Of a DNA stretch of 64,000 bases, positions 21,662-61,064 are shown piece after piece. Origin of the DNA: Pedobacter fastidiosus (GTDB lineage Bacteria > Bacteroidota > Bacteroidia > Sphingobacteriales > Sphingobacteriaceae); NCBI RefSeq assembly GCF_014306625.1, contig NZ_JACRYL010000018.1:1-64000 (forward strand), written 5' to 3'. Below the pieces are notes generated by a model that did not search any database, had not been told where the DNA came from, and worked only from the letters and a program-made list of their open reading frames with translations. The position numbers and the translations under genes are program-made. Position 1 is the first letter of the stretch. Each line of letters begins with the position of its first letter.

Positions 21662-21721
21662 ATTTTTAATACGTGAGCTATACAAATGATGGTTATTGAT
21701 AATATTTTTTAAGATTTGCTA

Positions 21722-21799
21722 GCGTTAACGATGGAAGCGGCATCCCCCGATTTTTCATCGGGGATACAGCGGACAGCGTGTAAAAACGCCCAAATAATT
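21722..21799. repeat. 78-bp dispersed repeat, forward copy
   Basis: It is nearly identical (about three mismatches) to the reverse complement of 51577-51654. The core hairpin CCCCGATTTTTCATCGGGG is flanked by GCGTTAACGAT and a tail CGCCCAAATAATT. A diverged relative is at 656-718. Confidence 0.85.
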
Positions 21800-46905: not shown

Positions 46906-49900
46906 TTAAAGCTTAACACTAAGATTTATACCAAAGGTTCTAACGGGTGGCACACCACCCAATTCCAATCCTGGGAAAGTAGCATTGTAGCTAGATTCTG
47001 GATCGATGTTGTCCGTTTTCTTCATTAGGATAAATAAATTTCGACCAACAAGACTTACGTTAAGTCCTTGGATCTTGTTGTTGAACAATTTTGCTGGGAA
47101 GTTATAACCCAAAGTCATTTGTCTGAATTTGATAAAACTCGCATCCTGAACAAATTGCTTAGAAACATTATTGGCAAAAGTGCTGTAGTAGGTTGCGGCA
47201 TTAACGCCTAGCGCATCTCTATTTTCTAATGTTGCTTGGTGCAAACCAAAAACATACCCATAATAATCAGTTGCAGAGAAAACTTTTCCGCCCCATTTAC
47301 CATCAAGCAAAACAGATAATGTTAAGCCTTTATAGTTAAATTCGTTGTTCCAACCCGCAAACCATTTATTGTAGGCCGAACCATAATCAACCAATTCTCC
47401 TCTTTGGGGAATCCCAGCAGCATCAAGCTTGATTTTTCCGGCAGCATCATATAAATAATCATAAGCAGAAACTTGAGCAGCTGCTTTACCCGGAATGTTC
47501 TGCAAGAAACCAACACCAGATCTTGAAGTAGCTAAAAGTTGAGAAGTTACGCCATCGGCTAATGATAGCACTGTGTTTTTATTGTATGAAGCGTTTAAAG
47601 AAGATGTCCATACAAAATCTTTATTCTTTAAAACCTGACCAGATAATAAAAGCTCGTAACCTTTGTTTTCTATTTCGCCAGAATTTAACACCGCACCAGC
47701 ATAACCTGTTGTACTCGATGTAGTAACGAAAGAAATTTCATCCTTCGATAACTTTTTGTAATACGTGAAATCTAGATTTAAACGATCACCGAAGAAGCGC
47801 ATTTCTGTTCCAATTTCGAACTCGCTTGCCTTAGAAGCTCTTAAACCCGAGTTAGGAATATTTACATTGGTTATGGTTCCAAGTGGCGCACCATTTAAAC
47901 TTTCGCTTCTAAAACTATAAGTTAATTGAGTTTGATAAGGATCAGTAGCCTGACCAACAACTGCATAACCCGCTCTTATTTTACCAAAACTTAAGAAACT
48001 TGGTTTCCAAAGCTCAGAGAATACAAATGATCCACTAACTGAAGGATAGAAAACACTTAGCTTATTGTCTTTACCTGGTGTTGCCAAAGTAGAGAACCAA
48101 TCGCTTCGACCGCTCCCTGTTAAGTAAAAAATATCTTTATAAGTAAGCTCTAAAGTTCCATAAACAGATTGTGTTTCAGATTCTGATTCTATATTTCCTA
48201 CTGATTTATTCTTGGCATTTAAGATGTTGTACACGCCAAATACTGCAAAATCAGATCCATTGTTGGTTGTTTGATTAATGTGCGTTCTTCTGTAACTCGC
48301 ACCAACGTTAGGTGTTATGGTAAAATCATCATCTACTTTAAAAGACTTACCAACTAATCCATCTACATTTATATCAGAAAATTTAGTTGCCTGTTCTGCT
48401 ATTTTACCTGCCGGAAAATATGCTGTACCCGATGGAACAACATTTTTGTACGAATCTGTGTAAGCATCGCGTCCTGCTCTACCTTGTAAAAATAAGCCAT
48501 TATCGAAAGTATATTTTGCATTAAACGAACTTATTAGGCGGTCGCGTTTAGTATCATTGGTAAATTCGTTTGCCGCAAACCATGGGTTAGTTGCGTAAAC
48601 ATTACCCGTGTTATACAAAATTTCATTACCGGTAGAATTCTTCCAGGGGATAAGATCGTTTACACTTACACTCGTAGGTAAAAAAGCAACGTTGTAATTG
48701 GCATTACCAGCACCATCTGATAGCATTGGTCTGTTTTTGGCCTGCTCTAAAATGTAATTCATTCGAGCATCAATCGTTAATCTTTTAATTGGATTAAAGG
48801 TTCCTGTTAAGTTGAAAGATTGTCTGTTCAACCCAGAATTCGGTACAACTGAAGTATTGTGAACATCATTTGCCGATAAGCGAATGGTTCCGCCATCGAA
48901 TGTTTTATTTAAGGCAAGTGTGTTCGACCAAGTTCCACCTGTTTTATAAAAATCTTCAATGTTATTTTTTTGTGCGGTGTAAGGTCGTGCAACGCCATCA
49001 AACTGAACCACATTAGATCCATCTAATTTTGCACCCCAGCTAGAACCACCTACTTGAGCGGCAGCTGCAGCATCAGTAGGTTTTACACCATTTGCTCCCT
49101 GACCATAAATATATTGCCAGTTTGTTCTATCCATTACCTGTTCGGCAACGTAATTGGTATTAAATTCTACACTATTTCCTTTTCCACTTTTAGTGGTGAT
49201 TAAAATTACTCCAGCTTTTGCACGATAACCATACAATGCTGAAGCAGCTGCACCTTTTAAAACTGAAATACTTTCGATATCATCGGGATTTAAATTTCCA
49301 ACGGCATCACCCAAATCTGGAGCATTATCATATTGGCTCCCAGCATTACCATTTGGATTTAAATTATTTAATCCGACAGGTTTATTTTCCATCGGTACGC
49401 CATTGATAACATATAAAGGTTGGTTGGTTTGGCTTAAACTGGAAACGCCACGGATAGTAACGCTTGATGCAGCACCTGCACCGCCAGAAGTAGAACTAAT
49501 ATCTAAACCTGCAACCTTACCAACTAAGGAATTAACAACGTTATTTTCTCTAGCCTGTGTTAAAGATTCGCCACTTACTTGTGTTACGGAATAACCTAAA
49601 GCCCTACGTTCTTTCTTAATTCCCAATGCAGTTACCACAACATCAGTTAACTGTTTGGTATCTTCTGTTAATAGAATAGATAAATTAATTTGAGTGCCAA
49701 TTGGAATTTCTCTAGTTTGAAAACCAGCGTATGAAACCACCAAAATTGCATTTTCAGGAGCGTTTAAAACAAACTTTCCATTAATATCTGTCGATGTTCC
49801 TGTTCCTGTTCCCTTAACACGAACACTTGCACCGGGCAATGCGCCTCCAAGCGCATCTTTAACCGTTCCACTTATGGGAATTTCTTTACTCCTGCTAATT

Positions 49901-50250
49901 ACGATCAAGCCTCCATCAGAAACGGAATACTTTAAGTTAGTTCTGTTAAGAATAGTGGCCAAAACATCGGTAACCAAAGTATTGGTCACGGTGATGCTTA
50001 CATCCTTGTTAACGGGAACGTAAGAAGAGCTGTACACAAAATGATAACTGCTTTGCTGCTCTATAATCTGTAAAACCCTGGCTAACTTTGTTTTCTTTAC
50101 ATCGAGAGAAATTTTTTCCTGAGAAAAAACCGATGCAGAAACATTCAGGCAGGTAATGAAAACCATAATACAGGTTAGTTTCATTAGCATAATGAATTTT
50201 AAAAACGCCCTATATTTAAAGCGCCCTTGCAGTAAGTAATAATAAATCAT
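46906..50250 (-). CDS. SusC/RagA TonB-dependent receptor with N-terminal STN domain
   Basis: 1114 residues from ATG 50250 (MIYYYLLQGRFKYR). A long signal region ends near VSASVFSQ; MLMKLTC inside it is a possible later start. An STN domain follows (about 48-110, LARVLQIIEQQSSYHFVY), which contacts FecR in the periplasm. Then come the carboxypeptidase-regulatory-like domain (about 115-195), plug (NQPLYVINGVPM, SALYGYRAKAGVILITTKSG) and barrel. With FecR and the ECF sigma it makes a cell-surface signalling unit: ligand uptake turns on its own operon. Confidence 0.95.
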   Translation of the reverse strand: MIYYYLLQGRFKYRAFLKFIMLMKLTCIMVFITCLNVSASVFSQEKISLDVKKTKLARVLQIIEQQSSYHFVYSSSYVPVNKDVSITVTNTLVTDVLATILNRTNLKYSVSDGGLIVISRSKEIPISGTVKDALGGALPGASVRVKGTGTGTSTDINGKFVLNAPENAILVVSYAGFQTREIPIGTQINLSILLTEDTKQLTDVVVTALGIKKERRALGYSVTQVSGESLTQARENNVVNSLVGKVAGLDISSTSGGAGAASSVTIRGVSSLSQTNQPLYVINGVPMENKPVGLNNLNPNGNAGSQYDNAPDLGDAVGNLNPDDIESISVLKGAAASALYGYRAKAGVILITTKSGKGNSVEFNTNYVAEQVMDRTNWQYIYGQGANGVKPTDAAAAAQVGGSSWGAKLDGSNVVQFDGVARPYTAQKNNIEDFYKTGGTWSNTLALNKTFDGGTIRLSANDVHNTSVVPNSGLNRQSFNLTGTFNPIKRLTIDARMNYILEQAKNRPMLSDGAGNANYNVAFLPTSVSVNDLIPWKNSTGNEILYNTGNVYATNPWFAANEFTNDTKRDRLISSFNAKYTFDNGLFLQGRAGRDAYTDSYKNVVPSGTAYFPAGKIAEQATKFSDINVDGLVGKSFKVDDDFTITPNVGASYRRTHINQTTNNGSDFAVFGVYNILNAKNKSVGNIESESETQSVYGTLELTYKDIFYLTGSGRSDWFSTLATPGKDNKLSVFYPSVSGSFVFSELWKPSFLSFGKIRAGYAVVGQATDPYQTQLTYSFRSESLNGAPLGTITNVNIPNSGLRASKASEFEIGTEMRFFGDRLNLDFTYYKKLSKDEISFVTTSSTTGYAGAVLNSGEIENKGYELLLSGQVLKNKDFVWTSSLNASYNKNTVLSLADGVTSQLLATSRSGVGFLQNIPGKAAAQVSAYDYLYDAAGKIKLDAAGIPQRGELVDYGSAYNKWFAGWNNEFNYKGLTLSVLLDGKWGGKVFSATDYYGYVFGLHQATLENRDALGVNAATYYSTFANNVSKQFVQDASFIKFRQMTLGYNFPAKLFNNKIQGLNVSLVGRNLFILMKKTDNIDPESSYNATFPGLELGGVPPVRTFGINLSVKL

Positions 50251-50335
50251 ATTTTTGTTTTTTTTGGTTGCATAAGTTCTTGGCAGCAATCTGTTTGCGC
50301 ATAAACTGCCATTAATAAATCAAGGAAGAAATGAT

Positions 50336-50367
50336 AAGGGCGGTGCTCCAACACCGTCCTTTTTTTA
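50336..50367 (+). terminator. hairpin between fecR and susC, best read as a plus-strand terminator
   Basis: AAGGGCGGTG pairs with CACCGTCCTT around CTCCAA and is followed by seven T's on the plus strand, opposite to the flanking genes. On the minus strand it is a stem with one mismatch and no T-run. Confidence 0.6.
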
Positions 50368-50369
50368 TC

Positions 50370-51434
50370 TTACTTTGATATGATCACTTGATTTCCTTTT
50401 ATCTCATATTTAAAGTATTCTACATCTTGTAAAGCTTTTAAAGCTTGGTCTATCGTTTCTCGGCTAAATGTTGCGGTAAAGCGGTATTTCTCTATTTCTG
50501 GACTGGTAAATTTGATTTCTACATTATACCATTTCTCCAAAACACCTTTAATTTCATCAAAATCTTGATCATAAATTTCGATGCGGTTTTGCGTCCACGC
50601 GGTTTCTACAATCGTGCTGTCTTTAATTAAAGTATAGTGGTTAATGGTAATTTCTGGATGGTTTGGAATTGGTCTTAAAATCTTTTGCTTCGCTTCTGGA
50701 GCAAGTTCTTTGTAAAACGTAACTTTCTGACTAGGCTTTAACGTAATCGTTCCGCCGTTGCCATTTACGGCTTCCATAGTAATTAAACCCCTAATTAAAG
50801 TTGCTTCAGAAGTAATTTCATCTGGATAGGCTTTAACATTGAAAGCAGTGCCTAAAACATTGATGTTGAAATCGTAGGTATGAACTTTAAATGGCTTGTT
50901 TTTATTATGAATTACATCAAAATAAGCTTCACCTTTTAGGGTAACCTCACGAAGTTTATCATTAAATTCTTTGCCAATAGATAAAGAGCTCTTCGCATTT
51001 AACAAAACCGTAGTCCCATCAGGAAGCATAATTTTTTTACGTTCTCCGCTTTTGGTTGTAAAGACTTTTGCTTGAAAATTCTCTCTTGCTGATTTCTGCA
51101 AACTATAATTTCGATAGAAAAAACCAGCACCAGCAATAACCAAGATTGCAGCAGCAATTTTTAACCAAGCAAAGTTTCTATTTAGCTTAAGCGTTGTAGG
51201 TGGCGAATCGAAATTCTCCTTAAATGTTTCCAGTTGATGATTAAGCGGTCGCTTGTTCCCACTTAAAATTACATACAGTCTTTTCGCCTCAGCGATTACT
51301 TCAGTCTGCTCTGGATGAGCTTTTATATATTTTTCCCAATACTCTGAGCACAGCTTATCGGTTCCAGCGCAATAAAGCTGGAAAGTGTTGTCAACAAGAA
51401 AATCTTCTGCATCAAACCGACTTCTATCAATCAT
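50370..51434 (-). CDS. FecR-family anti-sigma factor
   Basis: 354 residues. Cytoplasmic N-terminal sigma-binding part (about 1-80), a membrane helix about 86-106, FecR periplasmic domain about 120-225 (KSGERKKIMLPDGTTVLLNAKSSL, FDVIHNKNKPFKVHTYDFNINVLGTAFNV) and a C-terminal DUF4974-type domain about 280-354 that meets the STN domain. It should control the ECF sigma at 52.7-53.3 kb, from which it is separated by a repeat array. Confidence 0.95.
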   Translation of the reverse strand: MIDRSRFDAEDFLVDNTFQLYCAGTDKLCSEYWEKYIKAHPEQTEVIAEAKRLYVILSGNKRPLNHQLETFKENFDSPPTTLKLNRNFAWLKIAAAILVIAGAGFFYRNYSLQKSARENFQAKVFTTKSGERKKIMLPDGTTVLLNAKSSLSIGKEFNDKLREVTLKGEAYFDVIHNKNKPFKVHTYDFNINVLGTAFNVKAYPDEITSEATLIRGLITMEAVNGNGGTITLKPSQKVTFYKELAPEAKQKILRPIPNHPEITINHYTLIKDSTIVETAWTQNRIEIYDQDFDEIKGVLEKWYNVEIKFTSPEIEKYRFTATFSRETIDQALKALQDVEYFKYEIKGNQVIISK

Positions 51435-51576
51435 TACTATTTGTCTTTTATATATCAGTGCCCAAAAACTTTACTTTTTCCTAAGAAAAAATTAACTTTT
51501 TTTTAACATGACCAAATATGTGCCTTGTAGGTATAAAGAATAAAGAAATTTAATTTTAGAGAAAGACTTATAAAGA

Positions 51577-51654
51577 AATTATTTGGGCGTTTTAACACGC
51601 TATCCGCTGTATCCCCGATGAAAAATCGGGGGATGCCGCTTCTATCGTTAACGC
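51577..51654. repeat. 78-bp dispersed repeat, inverted copy
   Basis: Reverse complement of 21722-21799 with about three mismatches. It lies just before the 51.7-52.7 kb array. Confidence 0.85.
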
Positions 51655-51700
51655 AAAACCCAAACCACCTTGCGAAGTCGATTCATTACCCATCATTCTA

Positions 51701-52724
51701 ACCGAAGTGGAGAAATATTTGAAAAGAAAAAATTGCAAAGATCTCTCTATTCCGCTGCGCTTCAATCGAGAAGACAATTCCTGTAGCCGTCCTTTCGACC
51801 GAATTGGAGAAATTCTTTGAAAAGAAACAATTGCAAAGATCGCTCTATTCCGCTACGCTTCAATCGAGATGACGATTCCTGTAGCTATCCTTTCCACAGA
51901 AGTGGAGAAATCTTTGAAAATCGAATTAGTTTAACTTACAAAGGTCTCTCCGTTTCGCTGTGCTCCAGTCGAGATGACGATTCCTTTAGCCGTCCTTTCC
52001 ACCGAAGCGGAGAAATCTTTGAAAATAGAAGTAGGTTAATGTTCAAAGGTCTCTCTGTTCCGCTGTGCTTCAATCGAGAAGACAATTCCTGTAGCCGTCC
52101 TTTCGACCGAAGTGGAGAAATCTTTGAAAAAGAAACTACAAAGATCGCTCTATTCCGCTACGCTTCAATCGAGATGACGATTTCTGTGGCCGTCCTTTCC
52201 ACCGAAGTGGAGAAATCTTTGAAATTCGAAGTAGGTTAATGTTCAAAGGTCTCTCCGTTTCGCTATGCTCCAGTCGAGATGACGATGAACTTAAGATAGA
52301 AAATAAATCTCAAAACGCTTAACAAAACCGTCCTTTCGACCGTAGCGGAGAAATCTTTGAAGAGGGAAAATTGCAAGAATCGCTCTGTTCCGCTGCGCTC
52401 CAGTCGAGATGACGGAAAAGGTGGATACTGATCAAATCGTCCTTTCGACCGAAGTGGAAATCTTTGAAAATCGAAGTAGGTTAATGTTCAAAGGTCTCTC
52501 CGTTCCGCTGTGCTCCAGTCGAGATGACGGAAATAGAGCGGAGAAATCTTTGCAATTTGAATTTATTCATTGTTCAAAGGTCTCTCCGTTTCGCTATGCT
52601 CCAGTCGAGATGACGGAAAAGGTGGATACTGATCAAATCGTCCTTTCCACCGAAATGGAGAAATTTTTGAAAAGAAACAATTACAAAGATCGCTCTGTTC
52701 CGCTGCGCTTCAATCGAGATGACG
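51701..52724. repeat. array of ten ~90-bp repeat units between sigma and fecR genes
   Basis: Units start near 51701, 51790, 51887, 51991, 52097, 52191, 52329, 52439, 52531 and 52640. Each runs from (TTTCGACCGAAGTGGAGAAA) to (TCGAGATGACG). Two inner types occur: AAAGAAACAATTGCAAAGATCGCTC (units 1, 2, 5, 7, 10) and GAAGTAGGTTAATGTTCAAAGGTCTC (units 3, 4, 6, 8, 9, some diverged). GGAAAAGGTGGATACTGATCAAATCGTCC is repeated at about 52413 and 52614, showing a larger duplication. Frames at 51817-52239 and 52409-52765 are repeat translation, not genes. Confidence 0.9.
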
Positions 52725-52741
52725 AAACTTCGCAAGTCAGT

Positions 52742-53296
52742 CTACGCCTTAAGTTCTTTTCTTAAAATTTTAAGTGCGTCGTAAACTGTATTGTAAGCCG
52801 TTTTAATAGTCTGACTGGTTTGCTCAGCAATTTGTTCGTAGCTTAATCCATCAAAGAATTTTAAATGAATCAACTGCTTTTGGCGGAAGGTAAGTTTCTC
52901 TAAAGCATTCTTCAATTGGTATCGAACAAGTTCATCGCTCTGCACCTTAACAATAAACTCCTCATAACTCATCTCCATCCAATCGCCTTCTGCACCGGCA
53001 TTAAAAAGGGCATCGTTTATTTTACGTTTACGCTCTAAAATCCGAAGTAATTTACGTTTTAAAAATGTGCGGAGGTAAGCTTCAACATTATCTACACGAT
53101 TTAAAGTCTCGTGCTTTTCCCAAATGGTTGTAAAAACCAAATCGGTGGCCTCACTAGAAATATCAGCATCTGCACAAACGCGAATTCCGAAATTTACCAG
53201 CGGATAATATAGTGCTTTATATAAATCAAAAAAGGCATCTTTATCGCCAACGCGTAGTCGTTCCCATAATAAGTGATGCACTAATTTGTTATCCAT
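52742..53296 (-). CDS. ECF RNA polymerase sigma factor (FecI-like)
   Basis: 184 residues. Region 2 about 15-85 (ATDLVFTTIWEKHETL, NVEAYLRTFLKRKLLR) and region 4 about 120-180 (LTFRQKQLIHLKFFDGLSYEQIAEQT then a helix-turn-helix). This is the Bacteroidota sigma type that partners FecR and drives SusC/SusD operons. It would normally sit directly before fecR; here ~1.3 kb of repeats intervene. Confidence 0.94.
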   Translation of the reverse strand: MDNKLVHHLLWERLRVGDKDAFFDLYKALYYPLVNFGIRVCADADISSEATDLVFTTIWEKHETLNRVDNVEAYLRTFLKRKLLRILERKRKINDALFNAGAEGDWMEMSYEEFIVKVQSDELVRYQLKNALEKLTFRQKQLIHLKFFDGLSYEQIAEQTSQTIKTAYNTVYDALKILRKELKA

Positions 53297-53415
53297 AGGG
53301 TTTGTTAGTTAAAACAATATTAACTAAAAACATCAAGAATTTTACAAAATCTGTTAGAGATCGGCAGATTTCTTTTGGAAAGCCTCGCAGATTTTGAAAA
53401 CCTGCGAAGTTAAAA

Positions 53416-55302
53416 TTATTTTAAAGCCGTTTTACTGAAAATATGATATTCTCCAGGAGCCAGAACGCCAGCATAAGTATTAGATGATAAATTAATTGCA
53501 CTTCCTACAGCATCTACCCAAGTTCCAGATGAACCAAAATCAATATTTGCAGTTTGATTAACTACATCAAAATTGCCAACAACAACTACAGTATTTGCGC
53601 CTTCAACGAGTTTAATATATTTAACGCCACCAGATAAATTGTAAGTAGAGTTTGTACTGTTAAAAATGGTATTGTTCCTTTTAAGCTTGATAAATTTAGC
53701 ATAAGCATCATACAAAGCTTTGCGGTTTGGATCTGTATAGTAATCCCACTTAATTGGTTTCTGCCCAGTACGATCATTGAAATCAATGGAAATATCGTAG
53801 CCAACTTCTCCAAATTGCCAAACCATTTTCGGACCAGGAATGCTGAACAAAAATGCAGCTGCCAGCTCTTCTCTTTTTAAAGAAGTTGGCAAATTCCCTT
53901 TAATGGCATAAGTACCAGAGATATTTCCGAAAGAGATGTTTTTATAATTTAAACGTTCCTCATCATGACTTTCGCCATAAGTAACCAAGTTTTCTGATTT
54001 TGTAAAACCGTGTTTAGCGTAAAATCCCCAAGAAAAATCCGAGTTACCCAACCAGCCCATAGTAGCTTCATTCATGTTGTAATTTAAATTATTCCACATC
54101 ATCATACCCTCATCCGCTAAAACTTTCTCTTCAGATTCTTCTGCAAAATGTTCCAAAATCACATAGAAATTATTTGGATCTACACTTTTAATAAAGCTAT
54201 TATACTCTTTCCAAATCGCAATTCTACCCGCATCGTAAAGTCTAAATTGAGAATCGTCACTGGAAGTTTTTTGCGTAAATCCTTTGGACAAATCAAATCT
54301 GAAGCCATCGATTTTATATTGTTGCATCCAAAACTTCATTACATTTTTTGCAAAGTATTTTGTAGCAGCGCTTTCATGATTGAAATCATAACCTACATTA
54401 AATGGGTGTTTTGGATCTACATTAAACCAAGGACTTGCGCTTGTTGGTTTCGAGCCATCAAAATACAACTGAACCATGGGCGATTGGCCAAAAGAATGAT
54501 TTAGAACCATATCCATAATTACTGCAATACCCTTTCCATGGCATTCATCAATAAAGTTTTGCAAGGCAGTTTTGGTTCCGTAATATTTATCTGGGGCGAA
54601 GTAAAATGATGGATTATAACCCCAACTTAAATTTCCTTCAAACTCATTAACCGGCATTAATTCGATTGCATTAATTCCTAAACTCACCAAATAATCCAGC
54701 TTTGTTAAGGTAGAAGCGTAGCTATGATCAGTGGTAAAATCACGAATCAACAATTCATAAATAACTAGATTATTTTTATCAGGACGAACAAAGCCAGCAT
54801 TTTTCCAAGAATATACCGGCTGATTGGCCTGCATAACACTTACAATTCCAGTTGTTTTTCCTGTTGGATAAGCTTTTAAATTTGGATAAGTTACCGAAGT
54901 AATGAATTGATCATTCACAGGATCGAGCACTTTCTCACAATAAGGATCGGCCACTTTTAAAGTTCCATCTACCAAAAACTGATAGGCATACTCCGTATTA
55001 GGATTTAAATTATCAACCTGAATCCACCAAGTATTTCCATCAGAAGTCTTCTTCATTACCGAGGCGGAAGAAGACCAATCGTTAAATTCTCCAATTAACG
55101 AAACGGAAGTTTTGCCCGGAGCATATAAAGTTACAATTGCCGAAGTTCCGCCGTTTATAAAAGCAACACCATCTTTTGCGCCAGCTGGTAAATCCGTACT
55201 TGGTGTTGGTGTTGTCGGCAAAGTTCCTCCATCAGATGATGATTTTTTGCAGGCTGTATTAAATGCTGTTACCAATAGCAATAGGTAAATGAGTTTTTTC
55301 AT
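53416..55302 (-). CDS. GH13 alpha-amylase-family lipoprotein
   Basis: 628 residues. Lipobox NTAC (Cys18) with KKSSSDGG after it, typical of surface-exported lipoproteins. N-terminal CBM48/E-set domain about 45-135 (VSLIGEFNDW). GH13 barrel about 175-540 with VLNHSFG, nucleophile Asp337 (DGFRFD), acid/base Glu384 (VILEHF) and Asp447 (ESHDEE). It is probably the starch-cutting enzyme at the cell surface or periplasm, last in the maltodextrin locus. Confidence 0.92.
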   Translation of the reverse strand: MKKLIYLLLLVTAFNTACKKSSSDGGTLPTTPTPSTDLPAGAKDGVAFINGGTSAIVTLYAPGKTSVSLIGEFNDWSSSASVMKKTSDGNTWWIQVDNLNPNTEYAYQFLVDGTLKVADPYCEKVLDPVNDQFITSVTYPNLKAYPTGKTTGIVSVMQANQPVYSWKNAGFVRPDKNNLVIYELLIRDFTTDHSYASTLTKLDYLVSLGINAIELMPVNEFEGNLSWGYNPSFYFAPDKYYGTKTALQNFIDECHGKGIAVIMDMVLNHSFGQSPMVQLYFDGSKPTSASPWFNVDPKHPFNVGYDFNHESAATKYFAKNVMKFWMQQYKIDGFRFDLSKGFTQKTSSDDSQFRLYDAGRIAIWKEYNSFIKSVDPNNFYVILEHFAEESEEKVLADEGMMMWNNLNYNMNEATMGWLGNSDFSWGFYAKHGFTKSENLVTYGESHDEERLNYKNISFGNISGTYAIKGNLPTSLKREELAAAFLFSIPGPKMVWQFGEVGYDISIDFNDRTGQKPIKWDYYTDPNRKALYDAYAKFIKLKRNNTIFNSTNSTYNLSGGVKYIKLVEGANTVVVVGNFDVVNQTANIDFGSSGTWVDAVGSAINLSSNTYAGVLAPGEYHIFSKTALK

Positions 55303-55330
55303 TTGGTTAGAGATTTATTGTAAAAAAATC

Positions 55331-55407
55331 GTCATTGCGAGGTAAGAAGCAATCTCATTCACAAAATAGATTGCTTCTTACCTCGCATCCGATAGCTATC
55401 GGATGAC
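55331..55407. repeat. palindromic dispersed repeat (GTCATTGCGAGG family) with inserted palindrome
   Basis: TGCGAGGTAAGAAGCAATCT (55336-55355) and its exact complement (55368-55387) form a 20-bp stem. The second arm is followed by the 16-bp palindrome TCCGATAGCTATCGGA, then ATGAC pairing with GTCAT at 55331. It lies between the transporter and amylase genes. Confidence 0.85.
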
Positions 55408-55415
55408 AGAAAGGG

Positions 55416-56792
55416 CTAAACCGCTCTATTTTCTTCGACTTCTAATTTAGAGGTTAAAACAGCATCAACTTTTTTGGGTTCTTTAATAAAAACATAACAG
55501 ATTATTGCTGCTAAAACCATTAATCCACCACCGAGTTGTACGGCTAAAAGTCTATCGTTGTTTAAAACATTTTTCATCAACCATCCAAAACCTAGTGATG
55601 CAATAATTTCAGGCAGTACAATAAAGAAGTTAAAAATTCCCATGTAAATTCCGATTTTATCTTTAGGTAAAGAACCGCTTAACATGGCATAAGGCATAGA
55701 AAGAATACTTGCCCAGGCAATTCCAACACCCGTCATACATACATAAAGCATATTTTTATCGTGCACCCATGCCACGCTAATTAACCCGATTGCACCACAG
55801 ATTAAACATAGTGCATGGGTAGTTTTACGACCAAGGGCATCGGCAATTTTTGGCAAAACCAAAGCGAACAGAAAAGTAATAACGCTATAATAAGCTAAAG
55901 TTAAACTTCCAAAATCTGCGCCATGCGCATAAACTGGATCCGCTGCATCTTTACCACCAAATACGTTTACGGCAACTGCAGTTGTGTAATAAAACCACAT
56001 TAAAAATAATCCTGGCCAAGTAAAAAACTGAACCAAAGAAACAATTTGCATTCTTTTGGGCATATTCCTTAATGCGCTAAAAATCTCTCGAGCGCCTCCA
56101 CCAAAACCTTTATTGCTTTCAAGAACTTTTTCTTTGAAATCTACATCTTGTGGTGGATATTCTTTTGTGGTAACAACCGTCCACAATACCGCGGCGAAAA
56201 AGAAAAATGCGCCTATATAAAAAGAGAATTTAACATTTTCCGGAATACTGCCTTGTTCTGCCGTATTGGTTAAATGGAAAACGTTATTCATAAGCCAAGG
56301 TAAAGATGAAGCCACACTTCCACCCAAACCAATCATCATGCTTTGCATAATAAAACCACGATTAACCTGACTATCCGGTAATTTATCGGTAACAAAAGCT
56401 CGGAAGGGTTCCATGGCAATGTTGCCAAAAACGTCTAAAACCCAAAGCAATCCAGCAGCCATCCATAATGCACTACTATGTGGCATAAAAATTAAGGCAA
56501 TACTACTTACAATTGCGCCAACCATAAAATATGGTCTTCTTCTACCCCATTTCGGATGCCACGTACGATCACTTAAATAACCAATAATGGGCTGAACTAA
56601 AAGCCCTGTTAAGGGAGCGGCTAAAAACAATAATGGAACCTGATCTGGATTGGCACCTAAGTTTTCGTAGATCCGCCCCATATTGGCACGTTGCAAATCC
56701 CATCCAAACTGGATTCCGAAAAAACCCACACTCATATTAATAATTTGCGCTAAGGTTAATTTTGGATTTTCGAATATTGTTTTTAAGCTCAT
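55416..56792 (-). CDS. MFS sugar transporter (maltose type)
   Basis: 458 residues, 12 predicted helices. The N-terminal FFGIQFGWDLQRANMGRIYENLGA and GYLSDRTWHPKWGRRRPY are characteristic of the SLC45/GPH-like disaccharide transporters found in Bacteroidota maltose loci. It would bring maltose or maltodextrin into the cytoplasm for the GH65 phosphorylase. Position within the starch locus supports this; specificity is inferred. Confidence 0.88.
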   Translation of the reverse strand: MSLKTIFENPKLTLAQIINMSVGFFGIQFGWDLQRANMGRIYENLGANPDQVPLLFLAAPLTGLLVQPIIGYLSDRTWHPKWGRRRPYFMVGAIVSSIALIFMPHSSALWMAAGLLWVLDVFGNIAMEPFRAFVTDKLPDSQVNRGFIMQSMMIGLGGSVASSLPWLMNNVFHLTNTAEQGSIPENVKFSFYIGAFFFFAAVLWTVVTTKEYPPQDVDFKEKVLESNKGFGGGAREIFSALRNMPKRMQIVSLVQFFTWPGLFLMWFYYTTAVAVNVFGGKDAADPVYAHGADFGSLTLAYYSVITFLFALVLPKIADALGRKTTHALCLICGAIGLISVAWVHDKNMLYVCMTGVGIAWASILSMPYAMLSGSLPKDKIGIYMGIFNFFIVLPEIIASLGFGWLMKNVLNNDRLLAVQLGGGLMVLAAIICYVFIKEPKKVDAVLTSKLEVEENRAV

Positions 56793-56904
56793 TATATTTG
56801 GTTTAGTCTTTTACGCTGTGTTTGTTACCACAAAAGCACAGAGAATACAAAGTATTCAAAAATTCTTGTGTTTTCTTAGTGCTCTTTGTGTCTTGGTGGT
56901 TAAT

Positions 56905-58659
56905 CTAAAATTCTATCACCTGTGCCGAAACTGGTCCAAGTTTTACAGGGATGCTCGTTCCTGCTGGGATATTTAATTTCGTATCTGTAAGTAAATCTGT
57001 AACTGGTGATGAAGATTTAACTTTTAAAATATTATCTGGAATTTCGATGTTTGCTTCTAGCGTTTGCGAGCGATCAAAATTCACCACAACCAATAAACGC
57101 TGTTTATCTGTGTAACGAATAAAAGCATACATGCGATTATTCATGTTTCCTGAATGCGGAACTTCAAAAATATTTCCATGTAATACGGCATCGCTCTGCG
57201 TGGTAACTTTTAGCAATTGCTGATAATAAGATCGCAATTTTTGTTGCGCTCCGCTTAGTTTATGCCCATCGAACAAACCATTATTCATCCATTTTTGATG
57301 TGCTGGAACACCCCAATAATCAAATATTGTTGTGCGGTTATCATCTCCACCAAAACCTTCTATACCTTTCCCCTGCTCGCCAACTTCTTGTCCGAAATAA
57401 AGCATAACCGGACCAGCGCCCAACGTTGCAGAAACAACCATTGCAGGCAAAGCCAATTCGGGTTTTCCTGCAAATCCTGCCGAAGCAATTCGTTCTTCGT
57501 CGTGGTTTTCTAGAAAGCGTAACATATGATCGCCAAAACCAGCGCTTTCTTTTTGCCAAACGTAGTTGATTGAAGCTACATCTGCAGTTGGTTCATTTCT
57601 AATTAATTTTTTTAAGCCATCGTACAAACCCACTTTATCATATAAATAATCGAATTTTCCTTCATTCAAATATTGAAGGTAAACTTGAGGATTATAGGCT
57701 TCACCTATAAAAATGATTTTAGAATTTACCTTTTTAACTTGCGGAATTACCCAGTTCCAAAATGCTATTGGCACCATTTCGGCCATATCACATCTAAAAC
57801 CATCTATATCTTTTTTGGCCCAAAACACTAAAATATCACGCATTTTTGCCCATACAGGCGGAATCGGATCAAAATATTGTTTCTCTCCATTTTGATAATC
57901 TACTCCATAATTTAATTTTATGGTCTCAAACCAATCATCAAACTTAGGTTGAGCTACAAAAACATTATTACCAGTTGCCTTCGCCGGGTTTTCATTAAAC
58001 TGACCATCCTGCAAAGCAGAAATTGGAGTTTGCTTAGGTTCGTGCTGAGGTACTAAAAACTTCTGCCCCGGAATATAATAGAAATCATTTTGCGCACTGA
58101 AACCTTTTGTTAAATCATCCTTCTCACCAAAATCGATTACATTTTTAGGTTTCGCATAAGAATGATAACTTCTCGCAACGTGATTTGGAATGAAATCGAT
58201 AATTACTTTTAAATCCTTTTTATGAGTTCTTTTAATTAGCGCTTCAAACTCTTTCATTCTATTATTGACATTAAGAGCTAAATCGGGGTCAACGTCATAA
58301 TAATCACGAACAGCATAGGGAGAACCTGCTCTGCCTTTAACTACATCGGCATCATCAACCTTAATTCCGTACTTAGAATAATCGGTTAAACTAGCGTGTG
58401 CCAAAGCTCCTGTGTACCAAACATAATTTACATGGAGCTCTTTCAAACCATCTAAAGCCTTATCGGTAATATCGTTAAACTTGCCAGAACCATTTTGCTC
58501 AATGGTTCCGTATGGCGTATTTGTATTGTTTTTATTGCCGAATAAACGGGGTAATAACTGGTAAATAACGATTTTTTTATCGTTCATTTTTGTACTGTTT
58601 TTTTGTGCAAAGGATGATTGTGAAATTAGTAAAAGGAAAATTACTATCAAGGAAACCAT
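56905..58659 (-). CDS. GH13 alpha-amylase / cyclomaltodextrinase-like enzyme
   Basis: 584 residues from ATG 58659. A hydrophobic signal-like N-terminus (MVSLIVIFLLLISQSSFAQ) lacks the usual lysines. GH13 core with DFIPNHVAR, nucleophile Asp291 (DGFRCD), Glu320 (FIGEAY) and Asp387 (ENHDEE), then a C-terminal beta domain. The frame opens to 58749, but positions 58667-58700 are a dispersed repeat, so earlier starts (58749, 58725) would include repeat-coded residues. It probably cuts maltodextrins in the periplasm. Confidence 0.88.
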   Translation of the reverse strand: MVSLIVIFLLLISQSSFAQKNSTKMNDKKIVIYQLLPRLFGNKNNTNTPYGTIEQNGSGKFNDITDKALDGLKELHVNYVWYTGALAHASLTDYSKYGIKVDDADVVKGRAGSPYAVRDYYDVDPDLALNVNNRMKEFEALIKRTHKKDLKVIIDFIPNHVARSYHSYAKPKNVIDFGEKDDLTKGFSAQNDFYYIPGQKFLVPQHEPKQTPISALQDGQFNENPAKATGNNVFVAQPKFDDWFETIKLNYGVDYQNGEKQYFDPIPPVWAKMRDILVFWAKKDIDGFRCDMAEMVPIAFWNWVIPQVKKVNSKIIFIGEAYNPQVYLQYLNEGKFDYLYDKVGLYDGLKKLIRNEPTADVASINYVWQKESAGFGDHMLRFLENHDEERIASAGFAGKPELALPAMVVSATLGAGPVMLYFGQEVGEQGKGIEGFGGDDNRTTIFDYWGVPAHQKWMNNGLFDGHKLSGAQQKLRSYYQQLLKVTTQSDAVLHGNIFEVPHSGNMNNRMYAFIRYTDKQRLLVVVNFDRSQTLEANIEIPDNILKVKSSSPVTDLLTDTKLNIPAGTSIPVKLGPVSAQVIEF

Positions 58660-58666
58660 TGCAGTG

Positions 58667-58700
58667 AGATTGCTTTGTCGTTCCTTCTCGCAATAACGAC
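58667..58700. repeat. half copy of the GTCATTGCGAGG repeat at the GH13 start
   Basis: AGATTGCTTTGTCGTTCCTTCTCGCAATAACGAC matches one arm of the family seen at 192-245, 450-505 and 55331-55407. It begins eight bases upstream of the ATG at 58659. Confidence 0.7.
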
Positions 58701-58745
58701 TTATTGAGTAGTTGCCGTCTTCCATTTTACATTTAACCTCTACAA

Positions 58746-61064
58746 TCATACCAACTCTGCGTTATCTACTTCAATCTCTGCGTTTCCAGCTAGTTTGTAC
58801 TGTTGGTTTCTGATGCCGATTTCCAAATCTATAGTTGCATTATTTTTAATATTGATCCCGTTCTCCGTGATTCTGATTTTTAAAGTTGCACCTCTAAAAC
58901 CGATTGTAAAAGCGAACGATTTCCATTTTTCTGGCAAGAAAGGGTTGAACTGTAATTTGCCATCGCGAACACGCATTCCGGCGAAACCTTCTACAACACT
59001 CATCCAAGTACCAGCCATAGAAGTAATGTGAAGTCCATCTTCAGTATCGTTGTTGTAATCATCCAGATCTAAACGAGCGGTACGCAAATAGAATTCGTAA
59101 GCGCGGGCCTCATCGTTAAGTTTAGCAGCTAAAATGCTGTGTACACAAGGTGATAAAGAACTTTCGTGAACGGTACGTGGCTCATAGAAATCAAAATTTC
59201 TTCTGATGGTTTCCAAATCATAATCTTCTTCAAAGAAATACAATCCTTGCAGAACATCAGCTTGCTTGATAAACGGAGAACGCAAAATTCTATCCCAACT
59301 CCATTTTTGGTTAATTGGTCTGTCGCTTGTAGGCAAATCTTTAACTAAAGTTTGTTCTTTATCTAAATAACCATCCTGTTGTAAGAAAATTCCCCTTTCT
59401 GCATCTGCAGGATAATACATTTTCTCAATAATATCAGCCCAATCCGCAAATTCTTGTTGATCGAAATTTAAACTTTTTAATAAGTTCTTATATTTTTCAG
59501 GTTGTTGTTTTTTAACAATTTCTGAAGCTTCGGTTGCATATTTCATGCACCAAGTGGCCAAAATATTAGTGTACCAATTGTTGTTTACGTTATTCTCGTA
59601 CTCATTCGGACCAGTTACGCCAAGCATTACATATTGTTGCTTGTCACTACTCCAATTTACGCGTTGTTTCCAGAAACGGGCAATCCCGATTAACACCTCC
59701 AAACCAAAATCAGACAGATAACTTTCATCGCCCGTGTAACGGATATAATTGAAAATGGCGAAGGCAATTGCTCCATTACGATGGATCTCTTCAAATGTGA
59801 TTTCCCATTCGTTATGGCATTCTTCACCATTCATGGTTACCATTGGATACAAAGCAGCTCCATTTATGAAACCTAATTTCTCTGCATTTTCTATGGCTTT
59901 GCCCAATTGTTTGTGGCGATAAACCAACAGGTTTTTACTTACTTCTTGAGGTGCCGTTGCTAAATAAAAAGGAACACAGTAAGCTTCGGTATCCCAATAA
60001 GTAGAACCTCCGTATTTCTCGCCCGTAAATCCTTTCGGGCCAATATTTAAGCGGTCGTCTTTACCTGTATACGTTTGGAAAAGTTGAAATATATTAAAGC
60101 GAATAGCTTGTTGAGCTGAAACATCACCTTCGATAATGATATCGCTTTCTTCCCATTTCGTGGCCCAAGCTTTGGTTTGTTCATTTAATAAAGTGTCAAA
60201 ACCTTTGGCAGATGCTTTTGCGATTACTGATTTTGTTTCCTTTAAAAGTTGCTCTTTCGGGTAATTCTCTGAAGATAAATTAGCGGCGATTTTTATCAGG
60301 GTGATTTCTTCATTTGCTTTTGCCTCAATAGAAAAAACTTGACCAACAAATTTCTCTTTGCGAATGGCTTCAGCATCTAAAGCTATCTTTTCATTATTTT
60401 TATAAATTTCGATGTTGCTTCCTGTACAAACCTCAAACTCAGTTTTCTTGGTTCTTAGTTTAAGATAAGCTTCATTTCCGGTGATTTCATCTGAAACTTT
60501 ATCCCAGAATTTTTCATCGTAGTTGCTGTCTTGATTTTTAACATCGCCATCAATAAACGGCATTAAAGTTAATTTTCCATCAAAGTTTAAAGGTGTAATG
60601 CTGTAACGAATTGCACCAACCTCATCATCAGCTATGCTGCAAAAACGAGTAGATTTTACTTTAACTGTTTTGCCACTTTTTAGTTTAGCGGTGAAAGTAC
60701 GTTCCAAAATTCCGGCATGCATATTAAGTACACGTTTGAAATCGCTTACTTCAGCTGTGGCTAAATCTAAAACTTCTCCATCTAACTTAACTTCTATACC
60801 AACCCAATTTGCTGCATTTAATACTTTGGCAAAATATTCTGGATAACCGTTTTTCCACCATCCAACTCTGGTTTTATCAGGATAATAAACGCCTGCAACA
60901 TAGTTGCCCAGTAAAGTTTCGCCAGTATAAGTTTCTTCAAAATTGGCACGCTGACCCATACGGCCATTACCCAAGCTGAAAATACTTTCTGAAATTTTAT
61001 TCAAATGTGGATCAAAGCCTTCTTCGATAATATTCCACTCATCTGCTTTAATGTAATTCTTCAT
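58746..61064 (-). CDS. GH65 maltose phosphorylase
   Basis: 772 residues. Converts maltose and phosphate to beta-glucose 1-phosphate and glucose in the cytoplasm; no signal peptide. N-terminal beta-sandwich about 1-270, (alpha/alpha)6 barrel about 310-690 with GGSTYWDTEAYC near 352-363 and catalytic Glu488 in TGPNEYENN, then C-terminal beta domain. The neighbouring beta-phosphoglucomutase takes its product, which favours maltose over trehalose or kojibiose as substrate, though these relatives cannot be fully excluded. Confidence 0.92.
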   Translation of the reverse strand: MKNYIKADEWNIIEEGFDPHLNKISESIFSLGNGRMGQRANFEETYTGETLLGNYVAGVYYPDKTRVGWWKNGYPEYFAKVLNAANWVGIEVKLDGEVLDLATAEVSDFKRVLNMHAGILERTFTAKLKSGKTVKVKSTRFCSIADDEVGAIRYSITPLNFDGKLTLMPFIDGDVKNQDSNYDEKFWDKVSDEITGNEAYLKLRTKKTEFEVCTGSNIEIYKNNEKIALDAEAIRKEKFVGQVFSIEAKANEEITLIKIAANLSSENYPKEQLLKETKSVIAKASAKGFDTLLNEQTKAWATKWEESDIIIEGDVSAQQAIRFNIFQLFQTYTGKDDRLNIGPKGFTGEKYGGSTYWDTEAYCVPFYLATAPQEVSKNLLVYRHKQLGKAIENAEKLGFINGAALYPMVTMNGEECHNEWEITFEEIHRNGAIAFAIFNYIRYTGDESYLSDFGLEVLIGIARFWKQRVNWSSDKQQYVMLGVTGPNEYENNVNNNWYTNILATWCMKYATEASEIVKKQQPEKYKNLLKSLNFDQQEFADWADIIEKMYYPADAERGIFLQQDGYLDKEQTLVKDLPTSDRPINQKWSWDRILRSPFIKQADVLQGLYFFEEDYDLETIRRNFDFYEPRTVHESSLSPCVHSILAAKLNDEARAYEFYLRTARLDLDDYNNDTEDGLHITSMAGTWMSVVEGFAGMRVRDGKLQFNPFLPEKWKSFAFTIGFRGATLKIRITENGINIKNNATIDLEIGIRNQQYKLAGNAEIEVDNAELV

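Follow-up and report, generated by a model that had tools for sequence, protein, structure and literature searches.

Bertels and Rainey in 2011 and Nunvar in 2010 reportedly described BIMEs, or REPINs, together with RAYT transposases. In the passages of one account that concern such elements, two inverted REP arms form one large hairpin and the copies are clustered (PMC6006769). The CGTC-tagged REPs are characterized in passages of Di Nocera et al. (2013, PMC3733652) by a CGTC foot, an A-T first stem pair, a stem of 8-9 bp, a loop of 4-5 nt and a tail that is mostly, although not universally, CCA. As those passages present them, they occur mostly as head-to-head dimers without an associated transposase gene; they are present in Bacteroidetes, and clusters are reported in Neisseria and Wolbachia, large ones being rare (PMC3733652).

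The window analyzed here is a stretch of 64,000 nucleotides from Pedobacter fastidiosus, with positions counted from its first letter. It contains ten copies of an element of this kind between an ECF sigma factor gene and a FecR anti-sigma gene (Table 1). An initial annotation had named these two genes as the neighbors of the array, as Pfam matches on both confirm, and had taken the gap between them to be unusually wide, which it is. Among the 14 FecR loci in this genome (G000), the sigma-fecR gap is 24-159 bp at 12 and 613 bp at one, on contig C11; at the array locus it is 1,307 bp, and units account for most of that length. Within the 613-bp gap (L182 2191-2803) lie a Flavo-1 match and further palindromes. 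The sigma and fecR genes lie within a likely starch or glucan locus (window 46906-58749, minus strand) with a SusC-like STN transducer and an alpha-amylase-family protein, where two open reading frames (55416-56792 and 56905-58749) appear, by eye, to encode a sugar transporter and another amylase.

Table 1. Features of the array locus (positions in the window).
Feature	Position	Strand	Basis
STN-domain SusC-like TonB-dependent transducer, downstream of fecR	46906..50289	-	Pfam STN, Plug, CarbopepD_reg_2
FecR anti-sigma gene, 354 aa	50370..51434	-	Pfam FecR, FecR_C
Conserved block next to fecR, its inferred promoter/leader	51435..51510	-	Alignment, 10 orthologous gaps
Flavo-1 RNA (RF01705) match, between array and fecR	51589..51659	-	44.6 bits vs gathering 42
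CTTGCGAAGTC, outer left remnant of second palindromic family (arrayed in G007)	51669..51679		
Unit 1, type A, decayed 5' arm	51688..51778	+	
Unit 2, type A	51786..51876	+	
Unit 3, type B	51884..51981	+	
Unit 4, type B	51989..52086	+	
Unit 5, type A	52094..52181	+	
Unit 6, type B	52189..52286	+	
Private linker, common only to window array and contig C2 array	52284..52326	+	Core search and alignment
Unit 7, type A	52327..52416	+	
Unit 8, type B	52436..52531	+	
Unit 9, type B, 5'-truncated, junction as in C2 array	52532..52617	+	
Unit 10, type A, 15 bp between its end and sigma stop codon	52637..52726	+	
AACTTCGCAAGTC, outer right remnant of second palindromic family	52726..52738		
ECF sigma factor gene, 184 aa	52742..53296	-	Pfam Sigma70_r4_2, Sigma70_ECF

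The array is real, beyond chance. Ten imperfect direct copies of a ~90-bp unit lie at about 51688-52726, all in one orientation, with pairwise identities of 65-93% and conserved ends spaced 98, 105, 105, 95, 105, 130, 115, 86 and 109 bp apart. Tandem Repeats Finder scores it at 713 for a period of 200 and 570 for a period of 105, the only rows above 300 in the 64-kb window; a third row over the array scores 292. Linkers also recur: ATTCCTGTAG or a near copy follows each of units 1-5, and one 23-bp linker occurs twice, 201 bp apart. Thus, the ten-unit array of the initial annotation holds, as does its duplication of ~200 bp, which appears both in the period-200 row and in the paired 23-bp linkers. 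Its two alternating inner types stand as types, with a short loop in units 1, 2, 5, 7 and 10 (A) and a long loop in units 3, 4, 6, 8 and 9 (B), but not as a strict alternation (the order is AABBABABBA). Plus-strand open reading frames across the array were judged spurious, because unit spacing is no steady multiple of three.

Full units consist of two arms placed head to head, with CGTC on the outside. The consensus 5' arm has an unpaired CGTC at its foot, followed by a hairpin of seven pairs with an internal mismatch and a 5-nt loop, whose stem starts with complementary A-T residues (ATTTC..GAAAT); the 3' arm has no such fold, and the unit tail is CTTTG. Copies that stand alone at other places in this genome carry inverted ends that are nearly perfect, CGTCATTTCGACC...CAAAGATTTCTCC...GTCGAAATGACG, and they fold as long hairpins. 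The ten window units were made into a covariance model, which gave 90 matches genome-wide at E<=1e-3, some of them counted on both strands, and, with no more than 69 candidates scored in each genome, matches in at least 36 of 60 congeners; the CGTC tag was seen by eye in most units of 19 further congeners. An exact 30-base pattern, sought in 84,980 species genomes, occurs in 18 stretches, 17 from Pedobacter and one from a 'Bacteroidales' MAG. The elements are mostly intergenic, often 4-30 bp from the 3' end of a gene. The unit is therefore a dispersed intergenic palindrome of about 90 bp, a head-to-head dimer resembling CGTC-tagged REPs and so of a kind already known, and the earlier description of a dispersed Bacteroidota repeat that was amplified locally is borne out. 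We call it CGTC-REP-like and assign it to none of the four families of Di Nocera et al., because most but not all points match. The literature searches made here turned up no description of the element or of the array in Pedobacter.

Copy number was compared with the sister species G007, whose sigma protein is 99% identical and whose flanking DNA is about 87% identical. Of 13 further sites, 12 could be located in G007 by their flanks, and adding the window site gives 13 comparisons, each between one genome per species; the singleton L036 has no G007 counterpart and was left out of the counts. Units were counted with the covariance model at E<=0.01. The numbers in G000 and G007 are 10 and 0 at the window site, 16 and 1 at C22 (L026), 11 and 0 at C4 (L025), 10 and 2 at C63 (L014), 6 and 0 at C65 (L015), 3 and 1 at C2 (L013), and 1 and 6 at C33 (L019), so that copy number is unequal at all seven array-bearing sites. 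The six singleton-only sites are 1 and 1 at L031, L037 and L020, and 1 and 0 at L034, L038 and L032. At one convergent junction, a CGTC element in G000 (L032 2589-2683) corresponds to an unrelated palindrome, CCACAGATTAACAGATTAA.., in G007 (L154 1410-1499), a swap of families. G000 has a lone copy at the C33 site, where G007 carries a six-unit array on its contig C23. The DNA linking the G007 units is homologous to the right flank of that lone copy; therefore, the G007 array grew by tandem duplication of the element together with its flank. In another congener (G043, L201 384-1527), three identical CGTC units with identical 25-bp flanks occur at spacings of 633 and 411 bp, the product of a large and recent tandem duplication.

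We consider it likely that the array arose when an element of the CGTC-tagged REP type, lying close to the 3' end of sigma, was amplified in place, and that it mainly reflects repeat turnover and is not a dedicated regulator. A dispersed CGTC-REP-like palindrome would have been located immediately 3' of sigma, unequal recombination or replication slippage between units would have let the array grow and shrink, and multi-unit blocks may have been copied between loci through ectopic recombination.

Orthologues of the sigma gene in nine congeners encode proteins 79-99% identical to it, and the gap to fecR ranges across the ten orthologues from 103 to 1,310 bp (last to first sense codons). The window array is missing from all nine other congeners, two of which have one weak unit at most, as expected from the earlier claim that it is not conserved between species. 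Those two, G020 and G011, carry single CGTC-like elements about 10 bp past the sigma stop. The G020 element is type-A-like, with 44 of 50 3' bases as in unit 1, versus 35-37 against four unrelated singletons; the G011 element resembles all window units about equally (30-32 of 50). This comparison suggests that the window array grew from an element already in place. The G007 gap holds four copies of an unrelated palindrome with a unit of 119-123 bp (L041 1020-1493), a family with 22 matches in G007 and one partial match in G000; thus, the two gaps also differ by a whole second array. The family's outer ends, CTTGCGAAGTC and AACTTCGCAAGTC, lie on either side of the window array, which therefore seems to be lodged within an older family member.

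That palindromes of differing families adjoin the sigma stop in G000, G007, G011, G020, G001, G009 and G010 (by eye) might mean that the units serve as 3'-end hairpins of the sigma mRNA, for termination or for protection from decay. Any palindrome would then suffice, and families could be swapped between species. Many single elements also lie 4-30 bp from gene 3' ends. However, the first 125 nt after sigma clearly beat shuffles in only two of ten orthologues, G007 (z -3.4) and G010 (z -5.6), with z 0.3 in G000 itself; a conserved 3' hairpin was rejected as a candidate on this count. The sense strand of the array likewise has no terminator-like site, and we regard a role in mRNA ends as unlikely.

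At the other end of the gap, a block next to fecR (TTTTTCCTAAG..TTAACTTTTTTTTAAC) is present in all ten orthologues, including array-less gaps of 103, 173 and 286 bp. The alignment of the ten gaps has 37 invariant columns, nearly all within the first ~75 next to fecR. Because this adjoining DNA is conserved whatever the gap length, fecR probably has its own transcript start and promoter, array or not, and the gap would tolerate the array for that reason. The initial annotation had proposed that the array could uncouple sigma from FecR, acting as a regulatory spacer that would set differing levels of sigma and anti-sigma factor. In favor of such a spacer, the gap is eight times as long as the largest one among the 12 short pairs, and the whole array as RNA has more structure than shuffled sequences, whichever strand is taken (z -4.6 plus, -4.7 minus). 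The conserved block with or without an array, the nine other congeners without it and the unrelated array in the sister species all speak against it; the proposal is not supported, an uncoupling role is probably superfluous, and we hold a regulatory spacer to be quite improbable.

The presence of further palindromic families in the window gap, and the genome-wide dispersal of the elements, could also point to units inserted singly by transposition into a hot spot. The linkers common to several units, the single orientation of all ten and the flank co-duplicated in the G007 array make this very unlikely. Sites that are empty or altered in G007 (L034, L038, L032, L015 and L025) were inspected by eye for target-site duplications, and the G007 flanks there (about 87% identity) are too diverged for a call. 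Collapse or chimerism of repeats during assembly, conceivable for repeats in a draft genome of 65 contigs, is scarcely credible given units that differ by as much as their identities show, an array bordered on each side by unique sequence within a 98.9-kb contig, and comparable arrays in the independent genomes G003, G007, G067 and G069.

The private linker has a 24-base core with three occurrences in the genome (one on C9, two on C2) and none in G007, and the window and C2 arrays have in common both this linker and the junction of a 5'-truncated unit. Therefore, multi-unit blocks appear to have been copied between loci; independent insertions would not be expected to produce this pattern. The 5' arm reads GTCCTTTC in 28 of 38 G000 array units at six loci, in which units of one array are not independent, versus none of the 11 singletons, seven of which read GTCATTTC. 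Another 54 units, drawn from G007 and other congeners, were read by eye; only one of them has GTCCTTTC, and it belongs to the G007 site that corresponds to the C63 array. The tag therefore marks one array lineage of the G000/G007 pair and not arrays generally, because all six units of the G007 C23 array read GTCATTTC.

The singletons used for folding and for the tag were 11 from G000 and three from G007; they are those fetched, not all, and the set excludes half-elements (L028, L030), pairs (L029, L039) and covariance-model matches at places not fetched. Window units fold worse than these singletons (median z -1.9 versus -6.0, Mann-Whitney p=2e-4), and there is thus little sign of selection on each hairpin. 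Hairpin decay is no rule, because the C4 and C22 arrays still fold fairly well (median z -4.5 and -5.0). We tentatively raise the possibility, itself somewhat doubtful, that the arrays are a second, transposase-free repeat lineage, in which linker-bearing blocks would be copied from array to array by ectopic recombination, GTCCTTTC, as a diagnostic mutation, would break one pair in the mobile hairpin and no new singletons would arise. If true, such a lineage would offer one explanation of the continued spread of CGTC repeats, for which no transposase is known. The block-wise spread of arrays may be the new part of these observations.

The genome itself has four Pfam Y1_Tnp matches. One of these genes is RAYT-like (C5:126135-126680) and has the palindrome GCGCAAGCGTCCGCTTGTG on both sides, which is probably the gene's own REP family (L024 2481-3379). 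Among 30 RAYT-like loci of the genus, a CGTC element was found near the gene at one (covariance model, E<=0.001), with a second at E=0.04. The genome's own Y1 transposases were therefore rejected as the mover, given the different palindrome at the C5 gene and the scarcity of CGTC elements near such genes. RAYT-like genes occur in 22 of the 24 genomes with at least ten copies among the matches listed, versus 11 of 36 others, a comparison that ignores kinship.

The gap contains one other element of a described class. Flavo-1 RNA (RF01705) is treated in part of Weinberg 2010 (PMC2864571), and passages of a study of F. psychrophilum place Flavo-1 matches sense or antisense to transcribed regions, indistinctly (PMC9723704). 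The match between array and fecR exceeds the Rfam cut-off and is an element separate from the array; a second above the cut-off lies at window positions 21717-21787 (plus strand). Flavo-1 is a dispersed palindrome in this genome, and matches at or above the cut-off occur in the sigma-fecR gap of six of the ten orthologues (G000, G007, G011, G020, G001 and G009). There are two among the genome's 14 sigma-fecR pairs versus two in 121.5 kb of its other loci. An excess in sigma-fecR gaps was rejected, since the raw p of 0.001 becomes 0.07 with an assumed intergenic share of 12%.

If repeat turnover accounts for most of the array, then a puzzling gap in a sigma/anti-sigma operon is explained by a process that can be traced between sister species, and a wide sigma-fecR gap need not signal regulation. 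The paired filled and empty sites provide material on how CGTC-type REPs are amplified without a known transposase.

Set against described repeat systems, the array does not fit a CRISPR array, with its repeats of 24-48 bp and unique spacers, because the period here is 86-130 bp and linkers are repeated. Like BIMEs and REPINs, the window element has two inverted arms, forms one large hairpin and has clustered copies. Membership in the REPIN/RAYT system was rejected, because the tag is CGTC and not of the GTAG type, the element lies near only one of 30 RAYT-like loci in the genus, and the genome's own such gene is flanked by a different palindrome. The element differs from CGTC-tagged REPs in its arm stem (seven pairs with a mismatch, versus 8-9), its tail (CTTTG, versus CCA), its longer 3' arm and its large tandem clusters. 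It resembles them in the CGTC foot, the AT first stem bases, the 5-nt loop of the 5' arm, the head-to-head arrangement, the intergenic location near gene 3' ends and the absence of a link to a transposase gene.
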